The translations under genes and the position numbers were made by a program. A stretch of 64,000 bases of DNA, taken from contig PPXM03000001.1 of NCBI GenBank assembly GCA_003707065.3, positions 1,674,001 to 1,738,000 on the forward strand, given 5' to 3'. How positions within the stretch are numbered: the first letter of the stretch is position 1; the number at the start of each line of letters is the position of its first letter. Below the pieces are notes generated by a model. That model saw only the letters and a list, made by a program, of their open reading frames with translations, did not search any database and had not been told where the DNA came from. This document shows positions 1 to 64,000 of the stretch, piece by piece. The stretch comes from Trigonopsis variabilis. Lineage: Eukaryota > Ascomycota > Trigonopsidomycetes > Trigonopsidales > Trigonopsidaceae.

Positions 1-1320
1 GAGCTTCGAAGATAGTCATTGTCGTTTTTGAGGCTGTCGATGATTTCCTGCAGGTCTCGAATCTGCGCATCTTTCTCTCTTAGCAGCTCCTCTGCCTCGG
101 TGCTGCGAACGGCCTGGAGGTCTTGTTCGAGCGACTTGATGCGGTCCTGGAGCACCACGACCTTGTCGTCGTCGCCAACGCTTCTAGTCTGTCCTCCGGC
201 CTCCAAGCGCAGCTCCTGGAGCCGTTGGTTGAACAGCGCTTCGTTCTGGATCATGGTGCCTTCGAGCGTGGCGATTGTATCCCTGAATTCACTCCGCTTG
301 GCCTCAAAGTCGGCGATGGCGGATGACAGCCGGTTGTCTTTTTCGGCCAGGGCGTCTTTGAGGTCTTCAATCTCTTGCATCATCTCCCTTTCGAGCGCCA
401 CTCGCTGCTGGAACTCGGTATTGTGGTCTTTGGCCATCTGTTGGAACTTTGCCACGGCCGCAGTGGTTCCTGCAAGAACCTTTGACTGTCGTTGGAGCTC
501 GTTTTCCTTCTCTTCGAGCAGGGCTTTCATTTTACTGAGCAAATCGGTAGACTTTGTGAGATCTTGCTGGATCCGGCTTGCCCTTATCTTATCGTCGTCG
601 CCACCAGGCGTGGCAAAAGCTCCGCTTTTTCTTACTCGGTTTGGGGTCCCTCCTGCCGGCGACTGGATCGTAGGCCGTCTGACTGGAGTGGACGACCGCA
701 TCGTTGACACTGACGACCGCCGCGATAAGGACTGGGGAGACTGGGGTATTGTTTGAGATTTTCGAGGCGACGCTGATCTTGACGGCTGGGAGGATCTGTT
801 GAGATCGACGATCTTGTCGAGATTGACAAAGAGTCCAGACAAGTCCCCGCATTCAAAGTAGGCAACACTATCGTTAGTATGAGCTATCTCACGCAGACTA
901 TCAGACGTAGACACTACACTGCACGAGATAAGAGGAACAGAAGACATTTCCACAATCTATCACACTGTATACGCATGAATCAGATGGTGGGCAGCACGAG
1001 ACCTTCCCTAGCACGAGTCCTGGCCGACGTCTGCACTGAACCCACGCATGCACTTACCCGTCGACTGATCCATTGTTTTTTCCTTTTCCAGTCCCTTCGC
1101 CGGTCAGCTCGAGGCCGCAGAACTGTCCTTTCTTGCCCAGAATCGACCCGATATAGCGGATGTAGCCATAGAAGCCGTTGGGAGCCTGGACGATATCGCC
1201 CAGGTGGACGGTCTGGGTGTCGTCGCACGCTTTCGACGGAGGCGCGACTGGGGCAGTAGGTGAAGCCTGACTCATCGACGAGAACGACAGGCGAGACGAC
1301 GCAGAGTAGGCTGCCGTCAT
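1..1320 (-). CDS. CAP-Gly domain, coiled-coil microtubule-binding protein (partial)
   Basis: Two exons: 1320-1058 and 867 to beyond position 1, so the C-terminus is missing. The CAP-Gly fold that binds EB1/tubulin tails starts about 30 residues in (LGDIVQAPNGFYGYIRYIG) and includes the signature GKNNGSVDG. A 190-nt intron (868-1057, GTAAGT donor, TACTAAC branch 3 nt before the AG) interrupts it. Splicing restores GSVDGVAYFEC, the expected CAP-Gly core. A Ser/Pro/Arg-rich linker follows, then a long heptad-like region rich in Glu, Lys, Gln and Leu. Known relatives are CLIP-170/Bik1/Tip1 plus-end trackers and dynactin p150/Ssm4; without the C-terminus I cannot choose. An internal ATG at 1275 is an alternative start. 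The CAP-Gly assignment is firm, the subfamily is not. Confidence 0.85.
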
Positions 1321-1940
1321 GCGTGGTAGAAGACAAAGGGCAACTTGACGAATGACGGCCACGTGACCGCGCGCGCAACAGTAAACAGTGAGATGAGGGC
1401 GTGGGAACGCAGGACGGAATGGGGGTAGGCAGGAATGTGTGATGACGAGGTGGAATTTGTGAGAAGTAGGCAAGCAGTGGTGGGAATAGTAGGGGTAGGG
1501 AAGGATAGTATCGAGAGGAGGGGCGAACCCGGACGAACTAGGGTGAGGAGAGCATGGGGTCGTGAGGTAAGGGGGTGTATTTGACTGTGGATCTAATGGT
1601 GGATCTAGTGGTGCATGCATGTATCTAGAGCTGGTGAGATCAGGTGAGAGAGTGTTCCATTCGTATGCCATGCTGAGGTGTGTTCCATCAACGGTATAGT
1701 CTCCTCCTGGGGAGAAACATGGTGATTTGGACTGATTTCTTGTAGACCATGACATATAACGACGATAATAACTACATAGATGCCCTTTTCCCCGCAAGAG
1801 GTATGTTGTTTTTTTTTCTGCTGTGGTCGACAAACGCATGCTCGTATGCATGCTCCGCACGCATACTTCACCCTACAACATTGACTCCATAATTATCATT
1901 TATATATACATCATTAACATAAGAGACCCGCTCTTTATCT
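1321..1940. other. Intergenic, promoter side of the CAP-Gly gene
   Basis: This lies between the 3' end of the Ser/Ala-rich gene and the start of the CAP-Gly gene, both on the minus strand. Open frames here have no family resemblance and read as chance. I see no RNA gene. Confidence 0.5.
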
Positions 1941-2783
1941 TCAAGCCATAATGGTGGCCGAACCTAGAATCAAACAAATCATGAGACCCCCAAGACTGAC
2001 TTTAGACAGACCGATCGTTGCCTGGGAGGTAAAAGTGCTAGACGAGGCTGAAGGAGCACTCGAGGCAGATGACACTCCCGAAGCTCTGGTTGCTAATGTC
2101 GACGCACTAGCTGACAGGGCTATCGATCCTCCTGAACTGACCGCAAAGGCAGCCGACTGAGCAGAGCCGGCCGCCGAAGAATAGGCAGGCTGAGAGATGA
2201 CTGACACGTTTGGAAGAGACGTAGCAGCGCCTGAAACGGCAGCTGAGCCCGTGTCGACCACCAGCGAGTGGGGAACAGAAGAAGTCAGCATGGAAAAGGC
2301 CCCAGCCTGTTCAGAGGCAGCAGCAGTGGCCTGCCCACTGGCACCACCAGCAACCTCGCTGGCACCTCCAGCTGCCTCGCTGGCCCCTCCAGCTGCCTCG
2401 CTGGCACCACCAGCCTCTGCAGTGGCAGCAGCAGTAGCCTCCTCGCCAGGTCCAGTAGCAGCCTGACTAGCACCGCCAGCAGCTTCACTTGCACCACCAG
2501 CCTCTGCAGTGGCAGCAGCGGTAGCCTCCTCGCTGGCTCCACCCTCTGCTTCTGCCGTTCCGGTAGCCCCACTGGCCCCATCTGCAGACACACTGGCTTC
2601 ACCCAATCCCACCGTCTGAGTAGCAGTGCTTCCCACTTGTTCCAACGACGACTCTCCTCCTGCAGACACGCTGTCGGCAACAGCTCCACTTTGGCCCTGG
2701 CTGAGACCGTCAAACACTTGGCTGGTCGTGGCTGCGGCGGCATCGCCAGCTCCTTGTTGTCCTGCTTGTTGTACTTCGCTCAT
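1941..2783 (-). CDS. Ser/Ala/Gly-rich repeat protein with C-terminal hydrophobic segment
   Basis: Single exon, 280 residues, function unknown. The N-terminus (MSEVQQAGQQGAG) is polar and has no signal peptide. Residues about 80-150 are made of degenerate GGASEAA-type repeats, and an acidic Ala-rich block (EEATAAATAEAGGASEA) occurs twice. The second half is Ser/Ala-rich. The last about 18 residues are hydrophobic (LGGLMICLILGSATIMA) and run to the stop. The composition resembles fungal GPI-anchored wall proteins, but a GPI protein needs an N-terminal signal, and no upstream ATG or exon is visible. A tail-anchored membrane protein is the other reading. A TATA box sits 34 bp before the ATG, which supports the start and suggests a well-expressed gene. 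Coding status is likely; the role is open. Confidence 0.6.
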   Translation of the reverse strand: MSEVQQAGQQGAGDAAAATTSQVFDGLSQGQSGAVADSVSAGGESSLEQVGSTATQTVGLGEASVSADGASGATGTAEAEGGASEEATAAATAEAGGASEAAGGASQAATGPGEEATAAATAEAGGASEAAGGASEAAGGASEVAGGASGQATAAASEQAGAFSMLTSSVPHSLVVDTGSAAVSGAATSLPNVSVISQPAYSSAAGSAQSAAFAVSSGGSIALSASASTLATRASGVSSASSAPSASSSTFTSQATIGLSKVSLGGLMICLILGSATIMA

Positions 2784-2816
2784 TTCAACTGATGGCTTGA
2801 CTAGAGAGTCCCCGGG

Positions 2817-2824
2817 TTTATATA
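2817..2824 (-). promoter_or_regulatory. TATA box of the Ser/Ala-rich gene
   Basis: TATATAAA on the minus strand, 34 bp before the ATG at 2783. The spacing matches TATA boxes of other genes in the window. Confidence 0.6.
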
Positions 2825-3786: not shown

Positions 3787-5904
3787 TCAAACAGGAAACG
3801 AAACAATCCGTTCGGGTCCTGTCTTTTTCTGCCGATAGTCCCACAGGATCTCGACGTAATCCTGGAAAGAGGCCTCCTTGCCTTGCTCCTTCTTGGCCGC
3901 CACCAGCCGCATAAACTCTTGCTGGAGACCCTGCTTGAAGTCCTTCTCCTCCAGCGCGGTCTCGCCGTCCGTGTACGACGCCAAGTCTACAATCAGCTCC
4001 ATGTCGCTGGGGACAATGTCCTTGAAGTGGACGTTCTTGCACCCGTCGTTGTTGCAGGTTCCCCCCGACGTCTCAAACATGCAAAAGGTGTGCTTGGGGT
4101 TGAGCTTGCTGCTATAGGTCAGTGAGCGCAGCCCGTCGTGGTGGACATAGGACGGGTAGTCGGGGCTGAAGCGAAAGGCTCGAAAGACCCGCAGGGGCGA
4201 GTCGTAGAAGCCTCGAAGGGGCTTGACAGCAAGGGGAGGGATGACCACGCTGCTTTCCCGAGGGCTTTCTTGAACGGCGTCCCTGGGGATGTGGGTTTTC
4301 GGTTCGTGCGAAGACTGTTCTGGGGCTGGCTTCGAGCGATCGATAGTGGTCCGCTTCTCTGTCTCTTGATGATGCCCATTAGGCTGGACAGGAGTTTGGA
4401 CAACAGGGTGAGGGGGAGAATAGGATCCGTCGTCGGGAACGGCAGGTGTCGCGTTTATAGAGGGGACGTTCGCGCTTATATAGGGGAAGGATGGCGGCGT
4501 GAATTCGGGTTCATATTCGTCAGTGTTTGCAGTGCTAACCTCGGTATCTAATTTGGGCTCATATTCGTCATTGGCCTCGGTAGTTAACTCGGGCTCGTAC
4601 TCGTCGTCTTGCTCGTTTGGTTCCACGGGAGCCGCAGGCTCGTACTCTTCTGGAGAAAGAGGAGCCGATCCGGGCTCGTAATCTTCATCACTCACGTCGT
4701 TATCGACCTGAGCTACCACATTAGGGACTCCTGCAATGTAAACCAAGCCAGATCGCCACGACTTACCGATGGGTTGTTGAGTAACGTGTGTCTTGACTGC
4801 ATCGTCAGTGGATCTAGCCGCCTCCTTTTCAGCCTGGATCTTCAAGGCCTCTTCAGTGGCAGCCGCCTCCTTTTCAGCCTGGGCCTTCAAGGCCTCTTCA
4901 GTGGCTCTGAGCTCTGACAAAAGGAGCGACCGTTTGTCATTGATCTCAGACAGAGCTCTTTCTCGCTCCAAAAGCAAGCTGCGCATCTTTTCCACCTCTT
5001 TTGTGTATTCGTCGAGATCGAACTGAGCGAGTTCCTCTTCGAGCCGCTTTCTTTTCTTGACGAGATCAGCCGAAGGGTGGGACGAGGGGAGGGCTGGAGA
5101 AGATGATTGAGAGGCAAGAGATGACTGAGAAGCAAGAGATGACTGAGAGGCAAGAGGCGAGTCTATAGCCTGGATGCGTTGCATTTTATCGGCATTTTCA
5201 GCCTTTAGACGCTTGATTGACTCCGAGATCCGCAAGATCTCGGCCTCTTTCTGCTGGAGTTCGATCAAGTGTCTCTTTGCCAAGGTATTCGTAGTGGTGA
5301 CGCTGTCAGCTGCTGCCAGAGCAGACGGAGCTTTCGAGCCTCGATCCTCCGCATCGCTCTGATCCGACCCGTCACTGAGATCGATCACCACGCGATTGGA
5401 GGTCGAGGCACCAAACTTGACTCGTTTCGAAGCAGGCTGGACAGGGATATTAGACGGTTTATGAATGGATTCTTTAGAGGATATCGAAGAAGACAGACTG
5501 GGGGGTTTGTCCACCAGGGTTCCGTCACTGGATCCTTTCAGACCTGAGGACGCCTTGACTCCGTCCTGGTTGGACAGAGCGGTGGGTATGGGACGAACTA
5601 AGGAGAAGACAAACTTTAGAAATAAAGGGTTAACATCGGACTCCTTGACCAGCCGATCATAGTCGTAGCCGGCGTCTAGCAGCTCTTTCATTGCATTCTG
5701 CGCAGCCTCCATCCGCTGCGACGCTGGAGTCAGTCTTGTCGGTCCACTATACGCACGACTGTCTTTCTTGAGCGCTGCAGGCTTGTTTACCGCACGCCCA
5801 GGAGGAGATCTACTTTTGGATTTCTCTCGGATCGATCGCAAGGCCGCCAATCGGACACTTTCAAGATACGCTGAATGGGATTCGTATCCATTAGGATCAG
5901 TCAT
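3787..5904 (-). CDS. Red1/ZFC3H1-like zinc-finger protein (nuclear RNA surveillance)
   Basis: 705 residues. The C-terminal about 130 residues carry the putative zinc-finger domain of fission yeast Red1 and human ZFC3H1: SPLRVFRAFRFSPDY, then a Ser-Leu-Thr-Tyr stretch, then a C-x8-C-x4-C-x3-H cluster ending in CNNDGCKNVHF. In those species the protein scaffolds the MTREC/PAXT complex that feeds transcripts to the nuclear exosome; that role here is inferred from the domain. The middle has a coiled coil (about residues 215-360), followed by several acidic repeats with the core DEYEP. The N-terminus is Ser/Arg-rich. An in-frame 36-nt GT...AG segment (4731-4766) could be a facultative intron, but its branch site is weak. 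The gene is divergent from myosin across about 1.1 kb. Confidence 0.75.
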   Translation of the reverse strand: MTDPNGYESHSAYLESVRLAALRSIREKSKSRSPPGRAVNKPAALKKDSRAYSGPTRLTPASQRMEAAQNAMKELLDAGYDYDRLVKESDVNPLFLKFVFSLVRPIPTALSNQDGVKASSGLKGSSDGTLVDKPPSLSSSISSKESIHKPSNIPVQPASKRVKFGASTSNRVVIDLSDGSDQSDAEDRGSKAPSALAAADSVTTTNTLAKRHLIELQQKEAEILRISESIKRLKAENADKMQRIQAIDSPLASQSSLASQSSLASQSSSPALPSSHPSADLVKKRKRLEEELAQFDLDEYTKEVEKMRSLLLERERALSEINDKRSLLLSELRATEEALKAQAEKEAAATEEALKIQAEKEAARSTDDAVKTHVTQQPIGKSWRSGLVYIAGVPNVVAQVDNDVSDEDYEPGSAPLSPEEYEPAAPVEPNEQDDEYEPELTTEANDEYEPKLDTEVSTANTDEYEPEFTPPSFPYISANVPSINATPAVPDDGSYSPPHPVVQTPVQPNGHHQETEKRTTIDRSKPAPEQSSHEPKTHIPRDAVQESPRESSVVIPPLAVKPLRGFYDSPLRVFRAFRFSPDYPSYVHHDGLRSLTYSSKLNPKHTFCMFETSGGTCNNDGCKNVHFKDIVPSDMELIVDLASYTDGETALEEKDFKQGLQQEFMRLVAAKKEQGKEASFQDYVEILWDYRQKKTGPERIVSFPV

Positions 5905-6996: not shown

Positions 6997-9900
6997 ATGA
7001 CGGTGGCGTCCCATGCCTCATCCTCAGAGAAAGAGCTAGTCTGGGTCCCCGACGATCACCTAGGATTCGTCAAGGTTCCCATCGTGGGCCAAGCACCAGA
7101 GGGAATCAAGGTCCGGCACAAGGACGGCGAGGTAGGTCCAGAGCAGCAGACGGTGGATCTAACCTTTGCAGGAGAAGGTGGTACCCGAAGACGACGTCGA
7201 TAAAGTGAATCCGGCAAAGTTCGACTGCTGCGATGACATGGCAGAGTTGACGTATTTGAACGAGGCGTCGGTGGTCTACAACTTGCGATGCAGATACGAA
7301 AAGAATTTGATCTACGTACGTACCTTGGGTCGCGGCTCGCTAACTTGCAGACGTACTCTGGTCTCTTCTTGGTCGCCGTGAACCCATACGAGAAACTAGA
7401 CATATATACCCAAGCCGACATCGAGCACTACCGGGGACACAAGGACCAGGTCCGCCCAAGGCCTCACATCTTTGCCATTAGCGACCTGGCGTACCGCAAC
7501 ATGCTCGAGATGAAGGAGAACCAGTCCATTCTGGTCACCGGAGAGTCTGGCGCCGGAAAGACCGAAAACACAAAGAAGGTCCTGCAGTACTTGGCGTCCG
7601 TGTCCCCGCAAAGCTCCACCAATCATTTTGAAGAGCAAATCACCAAGGCCAATCCGATCCTGGAAGCGTTTGGAAACGCCCAGACAGTCCGGAACAACAA
7701 CTCGTCGCGGTTTGGAAAATTCATTCGCATCGAATTCGAAACCGGCCAGATCATTGGAGCGTCCATCGACTGGTATCTGCTCGAAAAGTCGCGCGTCGTC
7801 ATCCAGAGCCCTCACGAACGAAACTACCACATTTTCTACCAGCTCCTGAGCCATTCCAACCGCTATCGAACCGAGTTTCTCCTCGACGGCGGCTACGAAA
7901 GCTACGACTACCTTCGCCACGGCAATGGCGTGATTCCTGGCGTCGACGACTCGCGAGAATTCAACCTGCTGCTGGAGGCGTTTAAAGTCATGAACTTTTC
8001 CGAAACCGACATCGCCGATATCCTCCGCGTGATTGCGTCCATTCTTCATCTCGGCAACATCCACGTCGTCAGCGACAGCGGCGAACAGGGGCGACTCAAA
8101 GACCACAAGGAGGCTGAGAAGCTGTGCCATGTAATGGGAATTCCCGTGGGTCCTTTGATCCAGGGGCTGGTGAAACCTAAGCGCAAGGCGGGGCGAGAAT
8201 GGCTGGTTCTAAGCCGGACCAAGGAGCAGATCAAGGCCAGTCTGGACGCTTTGGCCAAGAGTCTGTACGAGCGCCTGTTCAACCATGTTGTGACCAAGAT
8301 CAACGAGACAATCCAGGTCGAATCGCACCGCGACCCTACCTTTATCGGCGTGCTGGATATCGCCGGGTTTGAGATCTTCGACACCAACAGTTTTGAGCAA
8401 CTGTGCATCAACTACACAAACGAAAAGCTCCAGCAGTTCTTCAACCATCACATGTTTGTCTTGGAACAGGAGGAATACTCCAAGGAAAACATCGAGTGGC
8501 AGTTCATCGACTTTGGCCACGACCTGCAGCCGGTGATCGATCTGATCGAAAAGTCCAATCCAGTGGGCATTTTCTCCAGTCTCGACGAGGACTGCGTCAT
8601 GCCCAAGGCAAACGACGAGTCCTTCACCGATAAGCTTCACAACACCTGGGCCAAGTCCAGCACCAAGTACAAGCCGTCGCGGTTCAAGCAGGGCTTCTTG
8701 CTGGATCACTACGCAGGAACGGTGGAGTACTCGACGCATGGATGGCTCGAGAAGAATAAAGATCCGCTGAACGAGAATATCACGACGCTGCTGGCTGAGT
8801 CGTCGTTTGATATTATCGCCAATCTGTTCAGGACGCCTGAGACCAATACCGGCAGACGGCAAGGAATGTTTAGGACGGTTGCCCAGCGGCACAAGGAGCA
8901 GCTGACGAGTCTGATGGCGCAGCTGGATTCGACCCATCCCCATTTCGTCCGGTGTATCATTCCGAATAACCACAAAAAGCCCAAACAGTTTGACAATCTG
9001 CTGGTTTTGGAACAGCTGCGGTGCAATGGCGTCCTCGAAGGCATACGGATCAGCCGGACTGGCTTCCCCAACCGGCTGCTCTTCTCCGAATTCCGGTCCC
9101 GCTACCAGATGCTGCTAAAAGACCCTCCCAAAGGATTCGTCGACGGGCAACAGACCACCAGAGCCATTCTCGAGGAGCTGTCGCTCAACCCTGAGCTCTA
9201 CCGCATCGGCGAAACCAAGGTCTTTTTCCGAGCAGGAGTGCTGGCCAAGCTGGAAATCGAGCGCGAAGACAAGCTGCATAAACTGCTGACCATGTTCCAG
9301 TCGCTTTGTCGCGGCAAACTGACTCGGCGCAGACTCGAGCGCCAGCTGTTCCAGGTCGAGGCCTCCAAGATGATCTGCAAGAACATTCTGGCCTACAAAC
9401 GGCTTCAGCGAGACCCGTGGTGGCGCCTGATTAGCCAGGTCAAGCCTCTCATTGAAGATTCCGACCAGCCGGACCAGGTCGACAGCCAGGCCATGCTCGA
9501 ACTGGAAGAAAAGAACCAGAAAATGGAGCAGGAGCGAGAAAAGGCGCTCCAGGACCAGCAGACGCTAATGAGTCGAATCAAACATCTGGAGCAAACGCTC
9601 GAGAGCGAGCGGCAGCTGGCCTGGGACAAGGAAGAGATCCTGAAGCGGTCCAAACAGCGAGAAGCCGAGCTCGAGGAGCAGCTCAACTCGGCGCTGGACG
9701 ATCTTGACAAGCTCGAGTCGCAGTGTGACGAGCTACTGGTGGCCAAGAAGAAGATCGACAGCCGGTCAGAGCAGTGGCGCCAGGAGCTCGAAGAAGGAGC
9801 CAGTCTGATCAGCCACCTGGAAGCCGAGCGCGGCGAGCTAAGCGCCAAGATCGAGAAGCTCGAACAAGCGCTCGACGAGCGAGAGAAAGTCCAGCAGTCG

Positions 9901-13028: not shown

Positions 13029-14077
13029 CTAGCTCGACAACTTCTGCTTGAGGAGATCCGTCAAGGTGATGGCGTCGGCAGCGAATTTCCGAATGCCCTC
13101 TGATAGCTTCTCGGTGGCCATCTGGTCCTCGTTGAGCAGGAATCGGAAGGTGGGCTCGTCGTTGATGTACGAGACCTTTTCGAGGTCGGACGAGGCGGCC
13201 GCTGAGGGGTCCAGTTTCTTGGGGACGGGGTCGGACGACTCCAAGAGCTGTTCGAGCAGAGCAGGGGAAATTGTCAGATAGTCGACACCAGCAAGTTCCT
13301 TGATTTCACCCACGTTGCGGAACGACGCGCCCATGACGATCGTCTTGTAGCCAAACTTCCGGTAGTACGTATAGATGCGCTTGACCGAAGACACACCCGG
13401 GTCGTCCTGGGCAGTGTAGTCTTTGCCGGTGTTCTTCTTGTACCAGTCGAGGATTCGGCCCACAAAAGGCGAGATCAACGTGACCTGGGCCTCAGCGCAA
13501 GCAACGGCCTGGACAAAGGAGAAGAGCAAGGTCAAGTTGCAGTGGATGCCGTACTTGGACTCGAGCTCTCGCGCGGCCAAGATCCCCTCGTAGGTCGAGG
13601 CAATCTTGATCAGAATCCGGTCCTTGGACACGCCCAGAGACTTGTACAGCTCGATGATCTCGAGGGCCTTCTTGATGGTTCCCTGGGTGTCGAACGACAA
13701 CCGGGCGTCGACCTCAGTCGAGACACGGCCAGGAATGATCTTTAGAATCTCTGAACCAAACTCGACCAACAGACGGTCAAGGGCAATGCTGGCCTGCTCT
13801 TCAAGAGACGAGCCCTGGCCGTCAGCACACGTCTTGCATCTAGACTTACATTTTTCTTTCCATACTCGACCGCAAGATCAATCAATTTGGCGTACTCGGG
13901 CTTCTTGGCGGCGGCGAGAATCAGGGACGGGTTGGTGGTGGCATCCTGGGGCTTGTATTTGGCAATAGCTAGACGGTATTAGCAACCCACCATGGAATTC
14001 TTCTTACATTCAAACTCTCCAGTGTCGGAGACGACGACAGTACCAGTTTTCTTGAGTAAATCCAGCGAAGTAGACAT
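13029..14077 (-). CDS. TAL1: Transaldolase
   Basis: Three exons: 14077-14008, 13968-13850, 13814-13029; 324 residues, normal for the family. The introns are 39 nt (GCTAAT branch) and 35 nt (GCTGAC branch). The spliced product reads through the N-terminal barrel strand ([15 protein letters not shown]) and carries the Schiff-base lysine at about residue 133 in ILIKIAST. The enzyme moves a dihydroxyacetone unit from sedoheptulose-7-phosphate to glyceraldehyde-3-phosphate in the cytosolic non-oxidative pentose phosphate pathway. A TATA box lies 35 bp before the ATG. It is divergent from the carboxylase gene at 15769. Confidence 0.97.
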
Positions 14078-15768: not shown

Positions 15769-17881
15769 ATGACTCGGTTAATTCGTCCGTTAAAATCACT
15801 ATGTGTTGCCAATCGAGTAAGTTTTTCGGATGATAGCCGCTGACGGGCAGGGTGAAATAACTCAGCGGGTGCTGAGGACCGCGACCCGGATGGGAATCGA
15901 AACAACCACCCTCTACACCGACGCCGATAAGAGTCTGCCGTCGTCCACTGCAAGCGACACAAGCAACTTGTGCCTGGGGCCCTCCAATGGCTACCTGGAC
16001 ATCGACAAGATCATCTCTACGGCCAAGGCCAACGGCTGCGACTCGATCCACCCCGGCTACGGCTTTCTCAGCGAGAATGTCGCCTTTGCGCGACGCATTC
16101 AGGAGGAGGGCTTGATTTTCGTCGGCCCCCCGGTCGCTGCCATCGAGGCTATGGGCAGCAAGAGCCGATCGAAGGAGATCATGGAGGAGGCCCAAGTGCC
16201 AGTGGTGCCTGGGTACCATGGCAAGAACCAAGACAATGCATTCTTAAAAGAGCAGGCCGACAAGATTGGATATCCAGTGCTTATCAAGGCTGTTCTTGGC
16301 GGCGGCGGCAAAGGCATGCGGATCGTCAAGGAAGAGAAGGATTTCGACGACCAGCTGGCCTCTGCGCGGTCCGAGGCAAAGTCCTCGTTCAACGACGACA
16401 ACGTTTTGATTGAGAAATACATCGAGACTCCCCGCCACGTCGAAGTCCAAGTGTTTGCTGACAAGCACGGTAACGTCGTTGCCCTGGGCGAGCGCGACTG
16501 CAGTGTCCAGCGACGCCATCAAAAGGTCTTGGAAGAGAGCCCTGCGCCTGGCCTTGATCCGTTGACGCGGAAATCGCTATGGGAAAAGGCCTGCGCTGCT
16601 GCCAAAGCGGTTGGATACGAAGGAGCTGGCACTGTCGAGTTTATCTTTGATAACGACACGGGCAAGTTCTACTTTATGGAGATGAACACGCGTCTGCAAG
16701 TCGAGCACCCGGTGACCGAGGCAGTCACCAACACCGACTTGGTCGAGTGGCAGCTCCTGGTGGCGGCTGGGTTCCCGCTGCCGCTGACCCAGGAGCAGAT
16801 CGAAATCACTGGCCACTCGATCGAGGCCCGAATCTACTGTGAGAACCCAGACAAGGACTTTCTGCCCTCGTCTGGCAAAATCATCCACCTCGAGCCGCCC
16901 ACGACCGGCAGCCCACGATTGGACTTTACGTTTACCCAGGGCTCTGTGGTGTCGCCCCTGTACGACCCCATGATTGGAAAGGTCATCGTCAAGGGCGACA
17001 ACCGCGACGAGGCGCTGGCCAAGCTGCGCATGGCCCTGGGCCAGCTGCAGATTGTCGGCCCCGAGACCAACATCGACTTTATTCGACGGATCCTGGCCAA
17101 CGAGAACTTCACAGGAGAAAATCCTCCTGGACTCGAGACTGGGTTCATCCCCAAGAACCGGGATACGCTGATCTTTGACGCCGACCATCCTCCTCCTCTC
17201 CCGCCTGCCCATGTCTTTGCCCAAGCCGCCATCGGCCGCGTTCTCCAAAACAACCTTCTCTCTCCCGTCAAGCCGAGCAACTTTGAGTCCATCCTCAAGG
17301 CCAACAGCTTCAACCCGTTCTTCAGGTCGTTTACGTTCAAAGACTATCGTGCCGGCACTGCAGCCAAGCCCATCGAGGTCTCAATCACGCAGTTAGAGCC
17401 TGAAACGTTCAACGTCACCGTCGACGGCGTCGATTTGGGCGCAGTTGGCGCCTCTGCCGCTCTTTCTCCTGCAGCATCGTCCTCCCTACGTCTCTTTACC
17501 AGCTTTGCCGACTGCCAGGGCCACAACAGCTTTGTCTACGACGCGAGCAGAGACCAGATCCACATCTTCTACGCCGAGAACCACTACATCCTCGACGTCA
17601 TCCAGCCCGCGTGGCTCAAGAAGGCGTTGGGCATAGTCGAACACGACCTGGGAAGCGCCGTCGTCAGCCCCATGCCCTGTAAGGTCACCAAGGTCCTGGT
17701 CGAGCCTGGCCAGACGGTCAAGAAGGGCGAGCCTCTGATCATCATCGAGAGCATGAAGATGGAGACCACGCTGCGCTCTCCCGTTGCCGGCGAGGCCGTC
17801 ATCAAGAAGATTATCCATAAACCCGGTGATATCATTAACCAAGGCGTTCTGCTGGTGGAGTTTGAAGAGGAAAGCGAGTAA
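15769..17881 (+). CDS. mccA: 3-methylcrotonyl-CoA carboxylase, biotin-containing alpha subunit
   Basis: Two exons: 15769-15816 and 15851-17881 (692 residues). The 34-nt intron (GTAAGT donor, GCTGAC branch, CAG) splits the ANRGEI motif at the start of the biotin carboxylase domain; without splicing the motif is lost. The start gives a short basic leader (MTRLIRPLKS) suited to mitochondrial import. The biotin carboxylase domain has the ATP-grasp glycine loop GGGGKGMRIV, the catalytic EMNTRLQVEHPVTE segment, and a C-terminal biotinyl domain with the acceptor lysine in ESMKMET near residue 649. With a beta subunit (not in this window) it carboxylates 3-methylcrotonyl-CoA in leucine breakdown. The related propionyl-CoA carboxylase alpha is the main alternative. 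Confidence 0.9.
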
Positions 17882-22217: not shown

Positions 22218-23833
22218 TCAAACGTCTGAAAAGCTAAAATTATCTGGTAGCAGACGCTCACTCGAACTCAGGATACTGTCCCATATGATACCGCGACCTC
22301 TTAGAAAGTCCAGCCCTTCGTCGGATTCTGCCAGCAGCGATCCAGGACTCGTCCTCCAGTTCCACATCAAATGGACCAGCTGACGGGTGACTCTAGCCTC
22401 CCCGTCACAAAAGCAAGCGTCTAAGCGGTCCAGTTGGTTGACCAGAGCCGCGTAGTGAGAACTATCATCCATACAACAGGCAAAGACAACAATAGGCCAA
22501 TAAACTAGAAACATTTTGCGGATAGGGTCGATTGAGAGGTTGCTCATGCACCGAATTCCCAGGCTGATTGCTCCCTGAATGATTGGAGAGTAGATTGTGG
22601 CAGAAGGGTCGACCAGCAGATTCATGAGGATCGTGGCGCAAGCCAGCTCCATTCCCATTCGATTGATCATGTCAACTTCAAACTGTAAATCATCTCTACC
22701 TCTGACAGCCGGGCGAGGATTGGTCTGGTCCTTATAGACCCCTTGCCACCAATCCAGCGCATCCTGATACTCGCTCAGCTTTTCAGAATCCCGGTCAGGG
22801 TCAAAGGTGCGGAATAATAGAGTCAGCTCGTGAATAAGGATGAAAAATTCAATAGGCAGCCCTGAGACTGAGGGAAAGATAATCGTTATCGTTGTTAGTG
22901 AAGAGGCAGAAATACCATAGATATTGTGTCTGGCTCCAAGATCAAGTAACTTCGACCCGGTGGATTGGACCTCGGTCCAATCGATGGTCGGGTTGTAGAC
23001 GCTTGACATTGTCAGCAAAAGATAGGACTCAATCATCATTGCAATGACAGATTTGTATCGAACGTGGTTCATGTTCTCGACAGAGCCAATCAGCATCTTG
23101 GCTCCCCCCAGATGATGGCGAACGGCAGACCCGGTTAGCGGGTTGATGGATTTCTCCACCAGGCCCAAGAAGAAGCTGACACAAGAGAGCCAAAGATAAG
23201 CGTCGGATGAAGAGTTCGACATGCTCTCGCGTAGAGTGACTATGCTCGAATCATAATAGCTCAGCATCCGTTCGCGTTGACTCGAGTCCCGCGTCGACAG
23301 CTTGTTTAGGGTATATGTCAGCAGGGCCCCCAACAAGGGGCGATTATGGATCGCCCCGTGAGCAAACTCGTCGACCATTCCATGATATATATACAGTCCT
23401 CTGAAATAGGTCTTTGAAAAGTGCCCAAAGATTGTCCATTCCTCATCATTAGCTATACTCGATCCAATAAATGAGCTCTTATAAATCGGTCGCTCGATCG
23501 GTTCTTTCTCAATTAGTCTGGGTAATAATGTAACTGCCGAATTTCCTCCTACTCCTTGGTTATAGACCACCTTTATCAACCCTCGTCGATCCGCAGTCAT
23601 TCGACTGACAACTCCAACCCCTTTTCCATTCTCGTCTTCCTCCTTTGTGCCCCCAACCGGCCATTCACACGGTTTATTATATCGCGCACAAGCTTCACAC
23701 ACTGGCCTCCTTTCGTCGCATTTCTTCTTCCGTCGCCGACCTGGATGAGTTAGCTTGATGCCTATCTTGGGCAGGAAAACTTACATGTTAAACAGCCTGA
23801 TCTGGTTCTAAGCTTCTTCCGTATAACTGTCAT
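22218..23833 (-). CDS. Zn2Cys6 transcription factor
   Basis: Two exons: 23833-23785 and 23740-22218 (523 residues). A 44-nt intron (GCTAAC branch) cuts the zinc cluster: exon 1 gives RSGCLTC, exon 2 gives RRRKKKCDERRPVCEACARY, and the final Cys follows in KPCEWP. The joined spacing C-x2-C-x6-C-x6-C-x2-C-x6-C is a standard binuclear cluster. The rest is alpha-helical, in the manner of the fungal-specific regulatory domain. An in-frame stop just upstream of the ATG supports the start. Target genes are unknown; its neighbours are the flavin protein and, across a long gap, the branched-chain dehydrogenase. Confidence 0.92.
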
Positions 23834-40846: not shown

Positions 40847-43800
40847 CTATTTGGGCCTGATCTTGGGATCAAAGTAAGACGCCTCTCCCAGAATAACAAT
40901 GGCGTACCTGATCATGTCGTCCAGGCTCTCGACCATGTCTTGGGCGGCCGATCCAAACACGTTTCGGTTGACAATGACCCACCGCCGCTGTCTCTCGGAC
41001 TCGTTCTTGAATAGCGCCGGCATGTTTTCAATTTCCCGCGTCTTGTCGAGCAGCTTCTGTCGCGAGCTCGTCGACGAAGGCATATACCTTGGAACGGGGA
41101 GCTTGGCGCGGAAGGAGCAGCTGAGGATGTAGAGGACATACTGGAGAGAAGCCACCTGGTCTCGACGCAGAGACAGCAGCGTCTGGGTGTTCTTCTCGGC
41201 GCCGTCGTACGAGTAGACGCGGAAATAAGCTGAAGAGAGGCGGGCATCGACAAGACGACGGAAGAAGCGCTCGGCGCTGTTGAGCAGAGCATGATAGCCC
41301 GATCGATCAAACGTTCCCCGGAGACTGAGCTCGTGGTGGGCCATGTCGATCAGCTCGCGCACAGCAAAGATATCTAGGGTCAGTGAGAAGACTTGGGCGC
41401 TTACTAGAATAGATTCGAGCCTCTTGGATGTACTGCAGCTCGTCTGACAGCTCGGTGGGAAGGTCGTCGAGGTCACGGTAGAGATAGCGCGCTATAGTGT
41501 AGCGGTAGCTCATGTTGAGATGGGCCAGCACGCCTGCGATCGCCTTGCGCAGCTCGTGGCGGGCAATGAAGGGCCAGAGCGTCCAGTTTATAATGACCGC
41601 TGCCCACAACGCGATCATCAGGGCGAGCCCGCGGGTGGTGACGCCGACGACCGTGTTGGCCTTGCCGACGAGCTGGAGGGAGCAGATGGTGAACGTGACG
41701 CAGCCGGTGAGCCCAGAGCGCGGGTGGGTGGACGTGGTGTACCGGTACATGCACGGGTACATGAAGATGGCGCAAAAGACGCCAATGACGACGTGGTTCT
41801 GGTCGCGCGCGTTGAGGGCAAAGCCGGCCCATAGAGAGCCGATGATGATGAAGAAGCTGCGGGTCACCAGGTCCTCGAGGTTCCCAGACACCCGCGAGTG
41901 CATCATGATCAGCGCGAAGATGGCGGCCCACCACCCCTCGGAGGCATAGAACCAGCCGGTCGCCGACTCTGACGCCGGGACGTGGCCGGGGAGCGAGAGC
42001 ATGGTCGTCGAGATGACGGCCTTGATGGCGAATTTCGTTTCAAACGACTGCATTTTGTGCATCAGCGACCAGACCTTGTACCGCAGCGAAGACGAGTCGG
42101 CGTCGATGTCTTCAGCGTGGATGAGGTGGTGCTGGAACCCGCCGCGATCGACCTGCGACGTGTTTATCTTGTGCAGGCGGTCAAACACCTGGTCCACGGC
42201 CGCGTTGGTGTGGAAGTAGTGCCCGGCAATGTGGCCGCCGCGGTCGTGGATCGACTGGGGATTGCATCGGTGGAGAGCTTTGGACAGCGGGTACGAAGGC
42301 AGATGGAACGTCCACCTTCCCGAGCGGCCTTCGATGCCGTCGAGCACGAGCGCAAAGTTGGCCACCTTCTCGGCCGCCAGCCGGACGCTTTGGGCAAACG
42401 CGAGCAAATCGAGGAGATAGGGGCTTGATTCGTAGTCGATGCGGCTTTTGGCAAAGATGGTCGAGTCGACTTCGTCGTAGAGGCGGATTCGGGTGGCGAG
42501 GTAGGAGCGGGCGATCGCGAGCGAGCGATACTCGACCAGCACGGGCGTGAAGTCGTCCTGCTTGTAGGCGGGCAGCTTGTTTGGGCTCAGCTGGGCCAGC
42601 CTGGACATGCGCTCCTGGCCAGTGTAGAGCGTACAGGCCATGGAGCTGACCAGCCGGCGGAGCTCTGGAGCGAGCGACTTGTAGGCCAGCTCGTACAGGC
42701 TGTCGCCGTCCGGCTGGTACTTGATCTTGATCTGGTCGCTGGTGATCTGCTGCAGGCCGCGGAGAACGTCCTGCATTGCGTTTCGAAACAGGATAAAGTC
42801 CTGGGGCGAGATGGTCAAGAACGTGAGCTCGTTGCTAAGGTCTCGGTACGCTTCAGACAGGTCCGTGCCCGCTTCGTTCAGCTGGCGGTGGATCTCGTCG
42901 TGCTGGCACCCGTAGAAGTCGAAGGCCGCCAGGGCCGTGGAGAAGGAGTTCATCATCGCCGTGCTCAGCCGCCGCTGCATAAAGTCGGGGAAGACCGCCA
43001 GGTTGACGACCAGGCAGCACGCCAGGCCCATGATGTACGGGATCACAAAGTCCCAGAGCTTTGTTTTGGTGAGCGGGTGGAGCGTGGGGCTGTTATCGAC
43101 CAGCAGCATGTAGATCAGCGCGACGGACGCGGAAATGGACGGGTGGAACGAGCGGTTGTACCGCGCGCGCACCCACGAGAAGGCAAAGATCCCCACGATC
43201 TGGAAGGTGGCCAGGATTGCTCCGTAAGACCGGCGCGCAGGCTCAGTCGACCGCGAGACAAACAGCCCCAGCGTTCCCCACGCCATGCCGGTGGCGGTTG
43301 CGAGGATCGAGAGGAGCGTGTATTCGATCTGGCTTCCGGACGAGCGCCCAGGATGGTGCAGCAGGGCGGCCAGGCACCCAAAGGCGGGGTATCTTCCAAA
43401 CCAGGAGCGCACTGGCGTGACCAGGCACAGGATGTACAGGATGAAATAGCCCAGAAACGCCTTGAAGATCGTCATCCGCCGGTCGCTCTGCAGGACCGTC
43501 CTGAAAAAGCTCGCCGTCGACTGTGCCAGTCCGCCCGCCGTGCTCCTGAGGTCAAACCGCCGTCTCTGTCTTCGTAGCGACTTTTTGCGCTGCCTGTGGA
43601 GGGCAGCCAGCTCCTGCTCCCTGAACGGGCGGGTGTAGACTGCGTCGAAGAAGCCCGGGCGGAGATCGACGATGCCAAAGGTGTCGAGCTGGACGTCGGA
43701 CGAGACCTCGATCGAGACCCTCGAGTGGGACGCCATCGAGAGCGATCCTAGCCTCGGCGTCGAGCTTCGTCGCCGGTCGGTGGATGGGCCTCGACTGCTT

Positions 43801-45164: not shown

Positions 45165-46509
45165 ATGGTGCGTGGACGCAGGACCCGGCTAACCCCAGCG
45201 CTATCACACTCGCAGTGCGTCCACTCAGGATGAAAATGCTCCGCCTGGACGATCCAAGGCCATTGACGAACCAGACCCGAAACCAGACAATAAGAAACGG
45301 CTTGCGCTGGGCGATGTGAGCAACGTCGTCAACAACAAGGAGCCTCGGGAGGCCAAAAAGTCGGCGCTCGAGTCCCTCCAGTCCAAAAACGCTCTTGCCC
45401 GCCGTCTGCAGGCCAAGCGGGCGCAGACCAGCGACATCAGCAAGCCGGCCAAGCGGCCGAGACTCGAGGCCAGCGAGGGCGCGAGCAGAAGCCAACGAGT
45501 GGTGGAGATCGACGAGCGCGTGGTGGAGATCGTCGAGCGAGCGACGAACCAGGAACCAGTGGACACGACGGCGACCACGGCGACGACCGAGCCGGAGAGC
45601 TATGAGGATCTAGACACCGAAGACGCGGGCGACCCGCTGATGGTGGCCGAGTACTCCCAAGACATCTTTGACTACATGGAGGTCGCCGAGCTGCGGGTGA
45701 TGCCCGATCCGGCCTACATGGACCACCAGCCGGGGCTGGAGTGGAACGTGCGGGAGATCCTGGTCGACTGGCTCGTCGAGGTGCACTACAAGTTCCGGCT
45801 CCTGCCCGAGACGCTGTTTCTGGCCGTCAACATCATCGACCGCTACCTGAGCGTGGCCGAGGTGGCGGTGGGCATGGTGCAGCTCGTGGGCGTGACCGCG
45901 CTCTTCATCGCGGCCAAGTACGAGGAGGTCTTCTCGCCGTCGATCCAGAACTTTGTCTACGTCACCGACGGCGCCTACGAGCAGATCCAGATCATCGCCA
46001 TGGAGCGCGCCATCCTGCGCCGGCTCGACTACGACCTGTCGTACCCAAACCCCATGAACTTTCTCCGCCGCAGCTCCAAGGCCGACAACTACGACGTCGG
46101 CACCCGCACGCTGGCCAAGTACCTGATCGAGATCTCGCTCATCGACCACCGCTTCCTGCCGTTCCGCCCCTCGCTGGTCGCCGCGGCGGCCATCTACCTC
46201 GCCCGGGTCATGATGGGCTCGCCCGAGTGGGACGCCACCCTCAGACACTACTCGGGCGGGTACTCGAAGGCCGACATGTCCCCCGTCCGCGTCCTCCTCA
46301 TCCGCTACCTCGCCCAGCGCGTCACCCACGAGGCCATGTTCAAGAAGTACGCCAGCAAGAAATACCTCAAGGTGTCCCTCCAGACGCGCTCGTGGATCCA
46401 GCGCCACTTTGTCAAGGAGTGGCGGGCGGGCGTATTTGACGAGGAGTATGCCACCCGCGAGGCCAGAGCCGAGGCGGATGCCGAGGTCAAGAGGATGTTT
46501 GGCTTATGA
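45165..46509 (+). CDS. B-type mitotic cyclin (fission yeast Cdc13/NimE type)
   Basis: The body is exon 45199-46509. I place the start at 45165, where the ATG directly abuts a 31-nt intron (45168-45198, GTGCGT donor, CTAAC branch, CCCAG), giving M + RYHTRSASTQDENA (437 residues). An in-frame ATG at 45018 would add 49 residues of poor coding character. The cyclin box shows DPLMVAEYSQDIFDYM, WLVEVHYKFRLLPETLFLAVNIIDRYLS, LFIAAKYEEVFSPS and YPNPMNFLRRSSKAD, all typical of mitotic B cyclins and close to Cdc13. A KxxLxxxxN-like N-terminal region may hold the destruction signal. It activates Cdk1 for mitosis. The start is uncertain, the identity firm. Confidence 0.92.
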
Positions 46510-51193: not shown

Positions 51194-51962
51194 CTGCCGT
51201 CAGCGTCTCCTTGGGTGCCCACGTACTCTGCTAAACCTCTATCTCCCTTCACTTGTTTTCGTTTTGTTTATACCAATGCACCTGGGCCCATTAAGGAGGC
51301 TTTTTACAGTCGTTTGCGAGAATGCGTCGCAAAAAGACGCCGGGGGTAACGGTGAAAGGGCCAACCAGATTGAAAAGCTTATTTAACGTCTCCGAGTGAA
51401 AGACGGGCCCAATCAATGATCAAAGGTGAATCCTAGTCTTTAGGCAAAAAGCACGGAAAGTTCGGCAGTTGACGACGATAGACTGATTAAGAGGGGTGGT
51501 GGGTTGTCAGGCAGAATTTTCCTCGGTCGTGGTCATCAGCGGCTCCCACGTGGGCTGGGGTGACGACCAAGTGTGCTGGGCGGATACCACCTGGCTGAGA
51601 CATACGGCCAGGGGACAGGCGCAGGGCAGACGCAGGGTGCAGGAGAGCGTGCTACTATGGGTGTTTGAGGGTGTTGACGATGCTATCGAGTGGTTTAACG
51701 ATGCTGATCGGGCGCTTTGAGGGTGCACTCGTGCTGTGAGTGTCTGTTGACAGCGCGGTGGCCTAGTGTGCGTACGGCTCGAATGAGCAGACGAGGCAGA
51801 CGTTATGACGCCACAGAGATGCGGATACCCATCTATCAATATCAAACAGAGTATAAACTAAAAGTATGGATGCCAATAGTTGTCCTAGCTCAAGTGACGA
51901 TGTCGGTCGAGGCAGGGGATGTTAAGGGAGGGGCGATCAGAGCCCAGAGAGAGCCAGACAGG
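51194..51962. other. Intergenic region upstream of the Mg2+ transporter
   Basis: About 0.77 kb between same-strand genes. Frames at 51496-51992 lack features. No RNA gene recognised. Confidence 0.5.
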
Positions 51963-53097
51963 TTACTTTGGAAGGGCAGGTTTGGATTTTGATTCGACGC
52001 TGGGGTTAGCAGAGTAGGAGGCGGCACTTACGACTTTGCCACGGCATAGACGAGGCCGGCGAGGAAGCCCAAGAAGATGGCCGAGACGGAGCCAAAGGTG
52101 ATGGGGTCGCCAAAGAAGAGGAGGCCCGACAGCGCGATGGGGAGCTTGTTGAGGGCGCCGACCATCGAGTAGGTCGTCGACGACGTCACGCGGATGCACC
52201 AGGCGGACGTGTAGGAGATGCCGACCGTGGAGACGCCTGAAAAGACGATGGCAAAGATGATCGAGTTGCGGTGGACGGGGGGGAAGTTCTGGAGCACGTT
52301 GGCGGCACTCCAGTCCTCAAACAAAAAGGTGGCCACCAGCAGGACGGGGATGGACAGCAGGTTGTTGTAGAACATGGTATCAAAGTCCTTGAAGTTGGTC
52401 ATCTTCATCCGGCGCCGCATGGTCAGCACATAGGCCGCGCTGGTCAGGCAGTTGACGAGCATCCAGATGTAGCCCGTGTTGAACTCGGGCTCGAGCGACC
52501 CGCTGACCTGGGCGCTGGTGCTCGAAAAGTCCGCCCACGCAGCCACCAGCGACGACACGACCATCAACACAAACGACAGCAGGGTCAGGCCCGTCACCTG
52601 GCCGCCCGACAGAAACTTTTCGCCGTAGGCAATCAGGATGATGGTCAGGTTCTTGAAGATCGTATAGACCGGGACAGACAGGAACTGGACCCTAGCGGTT
52701 AGCTTTCCCTAAACAGACACGCACGCCTTGGATCCGGTGTAGATCATGATCACGAGGAACAAGGAAATGGGAAACCCTAACAGTTAGCGCAGCGTTGCCT
52801 GCACTCACAGAGCTTGGCCTCCTGGCTGTTGTAGTCGCGAAAGTGGATGATCTTGAGCGTCTTCATGCCCTGGATGCACAGCAGACACACGAGCGACTGC
52901 ATCGCCAGCAGCAGAAAGTTGAGGTTGAAGCCATAGCCGGACAAGACAAATTTATTGGTCAAGGTCATCAGGATCGAGGCCACGCAGTAGCTGGCGATGG
53001 GCAGAACGGCGCTGATCTGGGGATTCGCGACGGGCGTGAACGCGCCACTGGCGCCCATTTCGGCGCGGAAATCGTCATCTGCCTTGGCTTTGGACAT
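51963..53097 (-). CDS. VRG4: GDP-mannose transporter of the Golgi
   Basis: Four exons: 53097-52809, 52776-52725, 52691-52032, 51999-51963 (345 residues). The three introns are 32, 33 and 32 nt, all with GCTAAC 3-4 nt before the AG. Exon 2 is 52 nt and the last exon only 37 nt. Splicing gives [33 protein letters not shown] and a C-terminus [14 protein letters not shown] with Lys residues that could serve in Golgi retrieval. About ten membrane helices are present. The nucleotide-sugar motif GALNKLP is intact, as is the FNLNFLLL region. It imports GDP-mannose into the Golgi for mannan and glycolipid synthesis. Its upstream region is a 41-bp minisatellite. Confidence 0.96.
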
Positions 53098-60267: not shown

Positions 60268-60299
60268 CTGCTGTCAGTCGCAGCAGCGCCGAGCCTTAC
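60268..60299 (-). other. Probable 32-nt 5' UTR intron of TSC2
   Basis: GTAAGG donor, ACTGAC branch motif 3 nt before the terminal AG, ending one base before the TSC2 ATG. Size and structure match the coding introns here. No ATG is seen in the short upstream stretch. Confidence 0.65.
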
Positions 60300-61819: not shown

Positions 61820-62303
61820 TCTTGTAAATAAGCTTGTGCCGGTCAGCTACTGTTAATACCTTTGGACACAAAAGATATAAAGCTGCCAAGGACTGCCAAC
61901 TTGTTAAGACAGAATCTATACATACACTGACGATTCCTTGATTTAATCATGTCAGCTGGCATAGCTTGGGCATAAGACGAGCTCTTTAGGCTTTGTTTGA
62001 TGTTTCGTTGACGAGTCTTTGATGTCTGTCTCGGTAGTTTTACTCATAACTGTTCTTTCCACAGATAGAAGAAATCTACGCTGCAATATACTTCTCTGCC
62101 TGCTCCTAGAGCCGTCCACCGCTCATCTAGACACCCTGTATCCTGGATTACAAAGAACATCTAGAAACATGAAACATCTAGAAACACCAACAAAGTCCAA
62201 CAGAACGACCAACACTCCTACTACGCAGCCAAATCCAGAACAAAGGAACCAACAATGAGTAAAACAACCACAATTGCCACAACACCCTAACCACGCCATT
62301 CCC

Positions 62304-62414
62304 TTCTGTGCTCCTCTGTGCTCCCTCTGTGCTCCTCTGTGCTCCTCTGTGCTCCTCTGTGCTCCTCTGTGCTCCTCTGTGCTCCCTCTGTGCTCCCTCT
62401 GCGCTCCCTCTGTG
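62304..62414. repeat. 10/11-bp GCTCC(C)TCTGT tandem array
   Basis: About ten copies; units with two or three C residues alternate between 10 and 11 bp. It lies upstream of CSE1. Confidence 0.85.
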
Positions 62415-62439
62415 ACCCTGCTATAAACCTCCAGAACCG

Positions 62440-62488
62440 CCCGCTACGCTCTCCGCTACACTCTCCGCTACGCTCTCCGCTACGCTCA
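62440..62488. repeat. 11-bp TCCGCTACGCT tandem array
   Basis: Four copies, one with CTACACT, just upstream of the CSE1 leader. Confidence 0.8.
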
Positions 62489-62530
62489 TCTCTACCGTTG
62501 CCGCGGTAGCACGTAAACACATCTTTCACC

Positions 62531-64000
62531 ATGGCCGACCGACTGGTAAAACTCCTCGAAGCGTCCTTGGATTACCATCAATCGAATCTCGGTAAGTCCC
62601 CCGGCGGCGCCCCTGCTAAGATCAAGCCGAGCGCGAGCTGCGAAGCCTCGAAAAGACCCCTGGCTTCAGCACAGACCTCCTCACCGCCGTGGCCAATCCC
62701 CAGATCGCCCGCCCGGTCCGGCTGTCGGGCGCCATCTACTTCAAGAACCTGATCCGGCGCCGCTGGCGGGACGAGGAAGGGCACTACGGGCTTGCGCAGG
62801 GCGACGTCGACCTCATCAAGGCGTCCATTGTCACCTACATGATCCAGCTCGAGCCCAGTCTCCAGGCGCAGATCGGCGAGGCGATCAGCATCATGGCCGA
62901 GAGCGACTTCCCCGAGAACTGGCCCGGGCTTCTCGACGACCTGATTGCGCGGCTGTCGAGCGACGACTATGCGGTCAACAACGGCCTGCTGCTCATTGCC
63001 CACTCCATATTCAAGCGCTGGCGGCCGCTGTACCGGTCGAACGAGCTGTTCATCGAGATCAAGTTTGTCCTCGACAAGTTCGCCACGCCCTTCCTCCAGT
63101 TCTACCACCAGACCGACGAGAAAATCCAGGCCGACCCGCCTCTGCCCCAGCTGGACGCGCTGCTCGAGTCCCTGCTGCTGCTCAACAAGATCTTTTTCGA
63201 CCTGTCGTGCCAGGACCTGCCCGAGTTCTTCGAGGACCATCTCGACGACCTCATGGGCCTGTGCCACAAGTACCTGCTCTACACAAACCCCAAGCTCGAA
63301 GCGTCTGACGACGAGATATCGACCCTCGACAAGGTCAAGGCCGCCATCCTCGAGATCCTCCAGCTCTACACCCAGCGCTACGACGACGTCTTTGGCCGCC
63401 TCGTCCCCCAGTTTGTGCAGACCACGTGGAACCTGCTGGTCGAGCTGGGCCCCCAGCCCGTCTACGACCTGCTCGTGTCCAAGGCGCTCCAGTACCTGGC
63501 GTCGGTGGCCAAGAACAAGGCCCACGCGTCCATCTTCGAGGTCCCCGCCACGCTCAAGCTCGTGGTGGAAAAAGTCATTCTGCCCAACTGCGTCATCAGG
63601 CAATCGGACGAGGAGCTGTTTGAAGACGACCCGATCGAGTTTATCCGCCGCGATCTCGAAGGATCCGACTCGGACACCCGGCGGCGGGCGACGGGCGACT
63701 TTATCCGCGAGCTCAACGAAAACAACGAGCAGGCGGTCACCAGCATCATTCTCGACTGCATCAAGACCTTTCTCGCCCAGTACGCCGCCGACAAGGGCCG
63801 CCACTGGCGCCAGAAAGACACCGCCGTCTACCTGTTCTCGGCCGTCGCCGCCAAAGGCTCCGTCACCGCGGCAGGCCTCTCGTCGACGAACCTGCTGGTC
63901 GACATTGTCGACTTTTTTACCTCAAACATCGCCCCCGACCTCGTCACGCCCTCGACGCCGCCCATGCTCCGCGTCGACGCCGTCCGCTATATCCTGACCT
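62531..64000 (+). CDS. CSE1: Exportin-2 / importin-alpha re-exporter (partial)
   Basis: Exon 1 is 62531-62591; a 35-nt intron (62592-62626, GTAAGT donor, GCTAAG branch-like motif, AAG acceptor) follows; exon 2 runs from 62627 past the window end. The acceptor could instead be 6 nt earlier, in the same frame. The product is a HEAT-repeat karyopherin: ARPVRLSGAIYFKNLIRRRW, QIGEAISIMAESDFPENWPGLL, IFKRWRPLYRSNELF, DLPEFFEDHLDDLM and ELFEDDPIEFIRRDLEGSD, colinear with yeast Cse1. It returns importin alpha from nucleus to cytosol with RanGTP. About 478 of about 960 residues are present. Confidence 0.96.

Follow-up and report, generated by a model that had tools for sequence, protein, structure and literature searches.

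Very short introns with closely spaced branch site and AG are widespread in a yeast genome

We analysed the introns of a 64,000-nucleotide stretch of yeast DNA (hereafter the window; G000:C1:1674001-1738000), which carries fungal genes and belongs to a 15-contig assembly of 11,351,025 bases. A style of very short intron, in which a CTRAY branch motif stands a few nucleotides (nt) before the AG and a pyrimidine tract is absent, is real and widespread in this genome. Such a style had been proposed in an earlier note made from the letters of the window, and it stood up both in a set of window introns with protein support and against decoy and pattern controls. The ends of these segments are GT and AG, and a GTAAGT-like donor together with a CTRAY branch site identifies them as U2-type spliceosomal introns that are predicted to be removed from RNA. 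Judging from the sequence, we consider it probable that they are genuine U2-type introns which have been trimmed to near the spliceosome minimum and are recognised across the intron.

Protein-supported introns of the window

Introns were called with a home-made gene finder that used flat priors for length (18-500 nt) and for the branch-to-AG interval (0-40 nt). The scanned sequence also served to train its donor and branch weights, so that the real motif is somewhat favoured over decoys, and introns without a branch motif are invisible to it because the motif is required no further than 40 nt from the AG. In the window it called 22 introns, 14 of them ≤60 nt long. Protein support was obtained for 14 window introns located between 868 and 62626 (12 with the junction inside a domain, 1 restoring a motif and 1 at a domain edge):

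868..1057, - strand: 190-nt intron in a CAP-Gly protein gene, with CTAAC, 3 nt and AG; finder, flat priors; the CAP_GLY profile is matched at 2-65 of 65 across the junction once spliced
7132..7171, + strand: 40-nt intron in a myosin gene; finder; junction within Myosin_N, profile 2-45 of 45
7316..7350, + strand: 35-nt intron in the myosin gene; finder; start of the Myosin_head profile match moves from 27 to 2
13815..13849, - strand: 35-nt intron in a transaldolase gene; finder; start of the TAL_FSA profile match moves from 52 to 1
13969..14007, - strand: 39-nt intron in the transaldolase gene; finder; junction about 8 residues into TAL_FSA
15817..15850, + strand: 34-nt intron in a methylcrotonoyl-CoA carboxylase alpha gene; direct reading; splicing lifts the Biotin_carb_N score from 102.7 to 118.5 bits (profile 2-110 of 110)
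23741..23784, - strand: 44-nt intron in a Zn2Cys6 regulator gene; CLTC/RRRKKKCDE restored (junction at the slash), found by eye; also a match to the strict whole-genome pattern given below
32933..32977, + strand: 45-nt intron in a kinase gene (which we take to be Pho85-like); finder; start of the Pkinase profile match moves from 10 to 5, about 4 residues ahead of the junction (a small gain)
38918..38951, + strand: 34-nt intron in a PheRS beta gene; finder; spliced N-terminus matches Myxozyma P0121
39019..39053, + strand: 35-nt intron in the PheRS beta gene; finder; same N-terminal match to Myxozyma P0121, with a PhetRS_B1 gain
39125..39160, + strand: 36-nt intron in the PheRS beta gene; of two AGs the first, located 2 nt beyond the branch A, is passed over in favour of the second; frame and homologues
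52692..52724, - strand: 33-nt intron in a nucleotide-sugar transporter gene; finder; UAA transporter stretch 38-229 runs across the junction
52777..52808, - strand: 32-nt intron in the nucleotide-sugar transporter gene; finder; domain runs across the junction
62592..62626, + strand: 35-nt intron in a Cse1 exportin gene, branch motif CTAAG; finder; junction at the first IBN_N residue

Nine of these 14 introns belong to the 31-36 nt class (the nine span 32-36 nt), 4 measure 37-50 nt and 1 is longer, a distribution that reproduces in an independent set the shape of the earlier note's count (14, 6 and 2, respectively). Removal of the three PheRS beta introns raised the PhetRS_B1 score from 23.5 to 106.6 bits; the third of them ends at the second AG (39160) since an end at 39156 breaks the frame. 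The Cse1 intron has edge support only, IBN_N being visible in the unspliced frame too, and the kinase gene model includes an additional upstream intron of 101 nt which is uncertain.

Genome-wide signal and anatomy of the introns

Across the whole genome, the pattern GTAAGT-N(10-35)-CTAAC-N(1-6)-AG (24-54 nt) was found 287 times versus 93 in a reversed control. With N(36-66) as the first spacer (50-85 nt), 43 matches were found versus 120 in the control; because the control exceeds the pattern in this range, it serves as a rough baseline only. Among 98 of the 100 listed matches (of 287) to the strict pattern, the median length was 40 nt and the donor-to-CTAAC distance jumped at 22 nt.

The gene finder was run on the window, on 18 10-kilobase (kb) stretches and on 10 splicing-factor loci. 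The stretches were evenly spaced, not random, and were taken from contigs C1 and C2, the other 13 contigs being outside the sample; stretch L010 was excluded because it overlaps the window, as was L008 (C1:1310001-1320000), which reads as N throughout. A distance scan that took donors singly and used no gene model was too noisy for use. The finder made 136 calls. At lengths of 30-44 nt there were 82 of them, versus 12, 9 and 19 when each of three decoys stood in for the branch motif, so that the real motif gave 4-9 times the decoy count; the interval from motif to AG was 3-8 nt in 100 of the 136, versus 16-29 calls with the decoys. We also considered long introns as a second large population and rejected it, as they showed no excess over the decoys either at 61-100 nt (7 versus 14, 12 and 15) or above 100 nt (35 versus 40, 57 and 52); at least one long intron, 868-1057, is real. 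Removal of 48 calls (42 longer than 60 nt and 6 with a branch-to-AG spacing of 0 or >12) left a clean set of 88, to which the stretches contributed 63, the window 13 and the splicing-factor loci 12.

A random sample of 20 introns was taken from the 63 of the stretches and the spliced pieces were tested against Pfam. Eighteen pieces had a Pfam match and 2 matched no family; 6 junctions lay at least about 8 residues inside a domain (mitochondrial carrier, Zn cluster, TsaD, Sec1, WSC and acetyl-CoA carboxylase), and the other 14 were not placed inside one, falling outside the reported stretches, near the start codon or where a further stretch lay beyond those listed. These 14 junctions and the 2 pieces without a family could be read as a sign that the short segments are chance GT...AG strings in genes affected by frameshifts or mis-assembly and not introns at all, and the noise of pattern matching (93 control matches to 287, and 9-19 decoy introns at 30-44 nt) points the same way. 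Such an origin is nevertheless highly improbable: domains and conserved N-termini in the window are exactly restored by splicing, 18 of the 20 random pieces match Pfam with 6 junctions inside a domain, and the real motif outnumbers the decoys by the factor given above.

The 63 clean short introns of the stretches come from 180 kb, in which 45 of the 95 called genes contain an intron of ≤60 nt. Scaled up, with the decoy share removed, the yield of the stretches suggests some 3,000-3,500 introns genome-wide, a rough estimate derived from two contigs. Among 118 complete gene models, 54 had one or more clean short introns.

The median length in the clean set is 37 nt (35 nt for the 13 of the window, slightly below the sample as a whole), with 40 of the 88 introns at 31-36 nt, 56 at 33-38 nt and 79 at ≤45 nt. 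From the first intron base to the branch A the distance is 24-33 nt in 74 of 88 introns (median 28); distances of ≤31 nt between 5' splice site and branch occur in 67 of 88, and in 51 of 98 on the strict whole-genome list. Between the branch A and the AG there are 4-9 nt in 85 introns (median 5), and the gap from motif to AG is 3-5 nt in 67. The branch motif is CTAAC in 34 cases, CTGAC in 23, CTAAT in 18, CTGAT in 5 and another sequence in 8, the three motifs originally named accounting for 75 of 88; acceptors are TAG (49), CAG (26), AAG (12) and GAG (1). No pyrimidine tract was detected in the 88 introns, the longest pyrimidine run averaging 3.68 versus 3.55 in shuffles, and T makes up as much as 39% of the bases between branch and AG.

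Among calls of ≤60 nt, AGs at a gap of 2-3 nt after the branch A were never used, while those at 4 nt and 5 nt were used in 27 and 23 cases, respectively. AGs located 1-3 nt past the branch A were skipped in six introns. As a rule, the AG used is the first one separated from the branch A by 4 nt or more, and nearer ones are skipped.

In complete gene models 42 of 79 introns were found in the 5'-most 20% of the coding sequence and 11 of 79 within the first 30 coding bases. A probable intron of the window (45168-45198) starts directly after the start codon of a cyclin gene. It is one of the following candidates:

41374..41404, - strand: candidate 31-nt intron in an ArAE_2/FUSC transporter gene; finder, flat priors; a single open frame is restored
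45168..45198, + strand: candidate 31-nt intron right after the cyclin start codon; pattern and open frame; the finder favoured a 61-nt version
52000..52031, - strand: candidate 32-nt intron in the nucleotide-sugar transporter gene, near its 3' end; strict whole-genome pattern match; the finder favoured a 66-nt version; the frame after splicing runs to a stop
4713..4766, - strand: candidate 54-nt intron; finder only
51194..51226, - strand: candidate 33-nt intron upstream of or within the start of a CorA gene; motif only

An in-frame stop was present in 26 of 29 introns with a length that is a multiple of three versus 38 of 59 others (p 0.012). Selection against stopless introns of such lengths is not claimed, given that the finder can miss stopless ones.

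Base composition was recorded as well. The GC content (the fraction of G and C) of the window is 0.55, reaching about 0.60 at 40-64 kb, and 17 of the 18 10-kb stretches outside the window have values of 0.415-0.473, the exception being stretch L011 (C2:50001-60000) with 0.562. There seem to be GC-rich islands in this genome.

Splicing factors and intron recognition

All the factors that were searched for were found, namely U2AF1, U2AF2, SF1, a Prp40-like protein, Slu7, Prp18, Cactin and RED (45 bits). U2AF1 is 66% identical to Schizosaccharomyces pombe U2AF23 over residues 1-199 and is encoded in an open frame with no internal stop. U2AF2 (L021:1495-2964) matches its family model at 8-509 of 510 with 281 bits, below the curated cut-off of 310 bits, and four FF repeats in a single open frame fit Prp40. 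Two causes that we had considered were rejected: loss of U2AF1 as the origin of the spacing, since the gene is present, and loss of second-step factors owing to the near AG, since Slu7, Prp18 and Cactin are present. The altered U2AF dependence that had been suspected earlier likewise finds no counterpart in a changed factor set, U2AF1, U2AF2, SF1 and the Prp40-like protein all being in place.

A subtler change of the U2AF step is conceivable, in which U2AF2 no longer binds RNA and branch site plus AG form a composite element read by SF1/U2 and U2AF1 alone. The absence of a pyrimidine tract would fit, and so would the state of U2AF2: in alignment with human chains, it lacks the RNP aromatics of its first RNA recognition motif (RRM1) and, in RRM2, that of RNP2 (RNP2 RRLVAVGAD, RNP1 DLGLVEF), while the N-terminal tryptophan, which is invariant in the alignment and which we take to contact U2AF1, and the C-terminal domain are kept. 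However, the RNP1 aromatics of RRM2 are retained (RGFAFAEF). Of 12 aligned homologues, four (Lipomyces, Orbilia and two rows from Yarrowia) lack the RRM1 aromatics completely, three (Aspergillus, Sodiomyces and S. japonicus) lack them in part and five (two animals, two Mucoromycota and one basidiomycete) have them, so that their loss is not tied to this style of intron. Erosion of the U2AF2 RRMs was accordingly discarded as a special cause. Because the aromatic loss is common to Lipomyces, Orbilia and Yarrowia, altered U2AF dependence has no special support, and we regard this alternative as unlikely.

Given what is observed here (sequences, lengths, spacing, skipped AGs and factor genes), the situation looks like ordinary splicing pushed near its size limit, because the splicing proteins searched for are all present. 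U1 would bind the 5' splice site, and SF1, then U2, would bind the CTRAY branch site; U2AF1 would read the AG just past it, and Prp40 may bridge both ends of the intron. A pyrimidine tract would be unneeded because the AG lies within reach of U2AF1 from the branch site, and U2AF2 would probably act as a scaffold rather than as a tract binder. RED, on which the splicing of short introns in human cells depends, is retained and may have a similar role here; RED and Smu1 are reported to be required when the distance between 5' splice site and branch is short (PMC6692369).

That distance is the basis of another explanation. In the human B complex, as described in PMC6692369, the U6/5' splice site helix comprises 17 nt and the U2/branch helix 14 nt with a gap of ~21 nt, so that two helices and gap set a minimum of ~52 nt between 5' splice site and branch. 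The 67 of 88 clean introns with distances of ≤31 nt are at or below the sum of the two helices (17 + 14 nt), and a changed shape of the spliceosome, in which a more tightly packed B complex or a shortening of the U6/5' splice site and U2/branch helices permits a span of 24-33 nt, is possible, although we would not give it even odds. Against it, just 51 of 98 on the strict whole-genome list have such short distances, and introns of 25-36 nt are spliced in other eukaryotes according to PMC2483917, for which reason the human ~52 nt is no universal floor. Taken furthest, the argument would be that early spliceosome geometry has been rebuilt throughout the genome, the usual factors being retained, and that among several thousand introns between half and three quarters fall below the human two-helix span; a span too short for both human helices would therefore call for shorter U6/5' splice site and U2/branch pairing or a more compact B complex. 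We hold this stronger version to be doubtful.

Several points weigh against ordinary recognition across trimmed introns, our preferred reading. Two of the protein-supported introns (carboxylase 15817..15850 and Zn2Cys6 23741..23784) were missed by the finder. Two calls use an AG 1 nt past the branch A, contrary to the spacing rule, and may be false calls; in one of the six skipped-AG cases frame cannot decide, because both AGs keep it. Slu7, Prp18 and Cactin are tied to longer branch-AG distances, yet they are kept here. Finally, close branch-AG spacing is reported to accompany the presence and not the loss of U2AF1 (PMC8496845, PMC4202332, PMC5499181), but some yeasts that keep U2AF1 have long branch-AG distances and causation is unproven (PMC4202332); because of these exceptions the link between U2AF1 and spacing is a correlation.

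Significance and comparison with known systems

Among the listed results of our searches of the open-licence literature, no budding yeast was reported in which introns of this size are the rule. The close branch-AG half of the structure is already known in kind; what is newer is that a short 5' half is the general rule in a yeast genome moderately rich in introns. PMC2483917 associates very short introns with weak signals and intron-poor lineages with strong ones, and the combination seen here (short, numerous introns and a strong branch motif) fits neither of the reduced-intron classes described there. It bears on how two large small nuclear ribonucleoproteins fit onto a 33-nt intron. This yeast would separate the limit set by the distance from 5' splice site to branch from that set by the distance from branch to AG, and it would offer a natural test bed, with a compact genome, U2AF1, SF1, RED, a clear branch motif and introns that, by extrapolation, number in the thousands.

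The best named matches of PheRS beta are from Lipomycetaceae (58-61% identity), and in a tree of this one gene (29 rows) the query stands beside Tortispora at an unresolved fork next to Lipomycetaceae and other ascomycetes. The yeast may thus be an early-branching member of the Saccharomycotina, a weak placement drawn from sequence; basal yeasts such as Tortispora are described as intron-rich for their group (PMC5499181). Lipomyces, its nearest named kin by PheRS, has CTRAY branch sites and TAG ends as well, but the introns reported are 61-246 nt long with 7-17 nt from the branch element to the acceptor triplet (PMC7138796).

The comparison with Yarrowia lipolytica made earlier was apt for the branch-AG spacing: a CTRAY-type branch adjoins the AG and a pyrimidine tract is absent there too, the mean interval being given as ~1 nt (PMC2911113) or as 2 nt, versus 3 to 8 in four other yeasts (PMC2483917). 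Yarrowia introns have a median of 204 bp (base pairs) and a dominant peak at 41-60; 1,119 introns are reported, in 15% of genes, two thirds of them >100 nt (PMC2911113). The yeast studied here thus shares the 3' style but not the size class, with a median of 37 nt, no excess over decoys above 60 nt and clean short introns in 54 of 118 gene models; its gap from motif to AG also differs, at 3-5 nt in 67 of 88. Hemiascomycetes that keep U2AF1 similarly combine it with tight branch-AG spacing (PMC2483917, PMC4202332, PMC8496845, PMC5499181); the feature reported for them is the 3' half, whereas here the 5' half is short too (24-33 nt in 74 of 88).

Outside this group, Cryptococcus neoformans is a fungus whose genome is rich in introns of <60 nt, but in this basidiomycete the best-spliced class is reported as 40-60 nt and introns of <40 nt as a small population (PMC11913375). 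Encephalitozoon and Trichomonas resemble the present case in having introns of ~25-36 nt with a retained branch motif, and in Trichomonas also a fixed near AG (4 nt) (PMC2483917, PMC12316389); they differ in possessing very few introns per genome, as opposed to the thousands expected here. Intron-poor lineages with strong 3' structure differ in the same respect, few introns standing against 63 clean ones per 180 kb. Conversely, the short introns of Paramecium, the B. natans nucleomorph and dicyemids are described as devoid of a branch signature (PMC2483917), whereas those of the yeast analysed here carry a strong branch motif.

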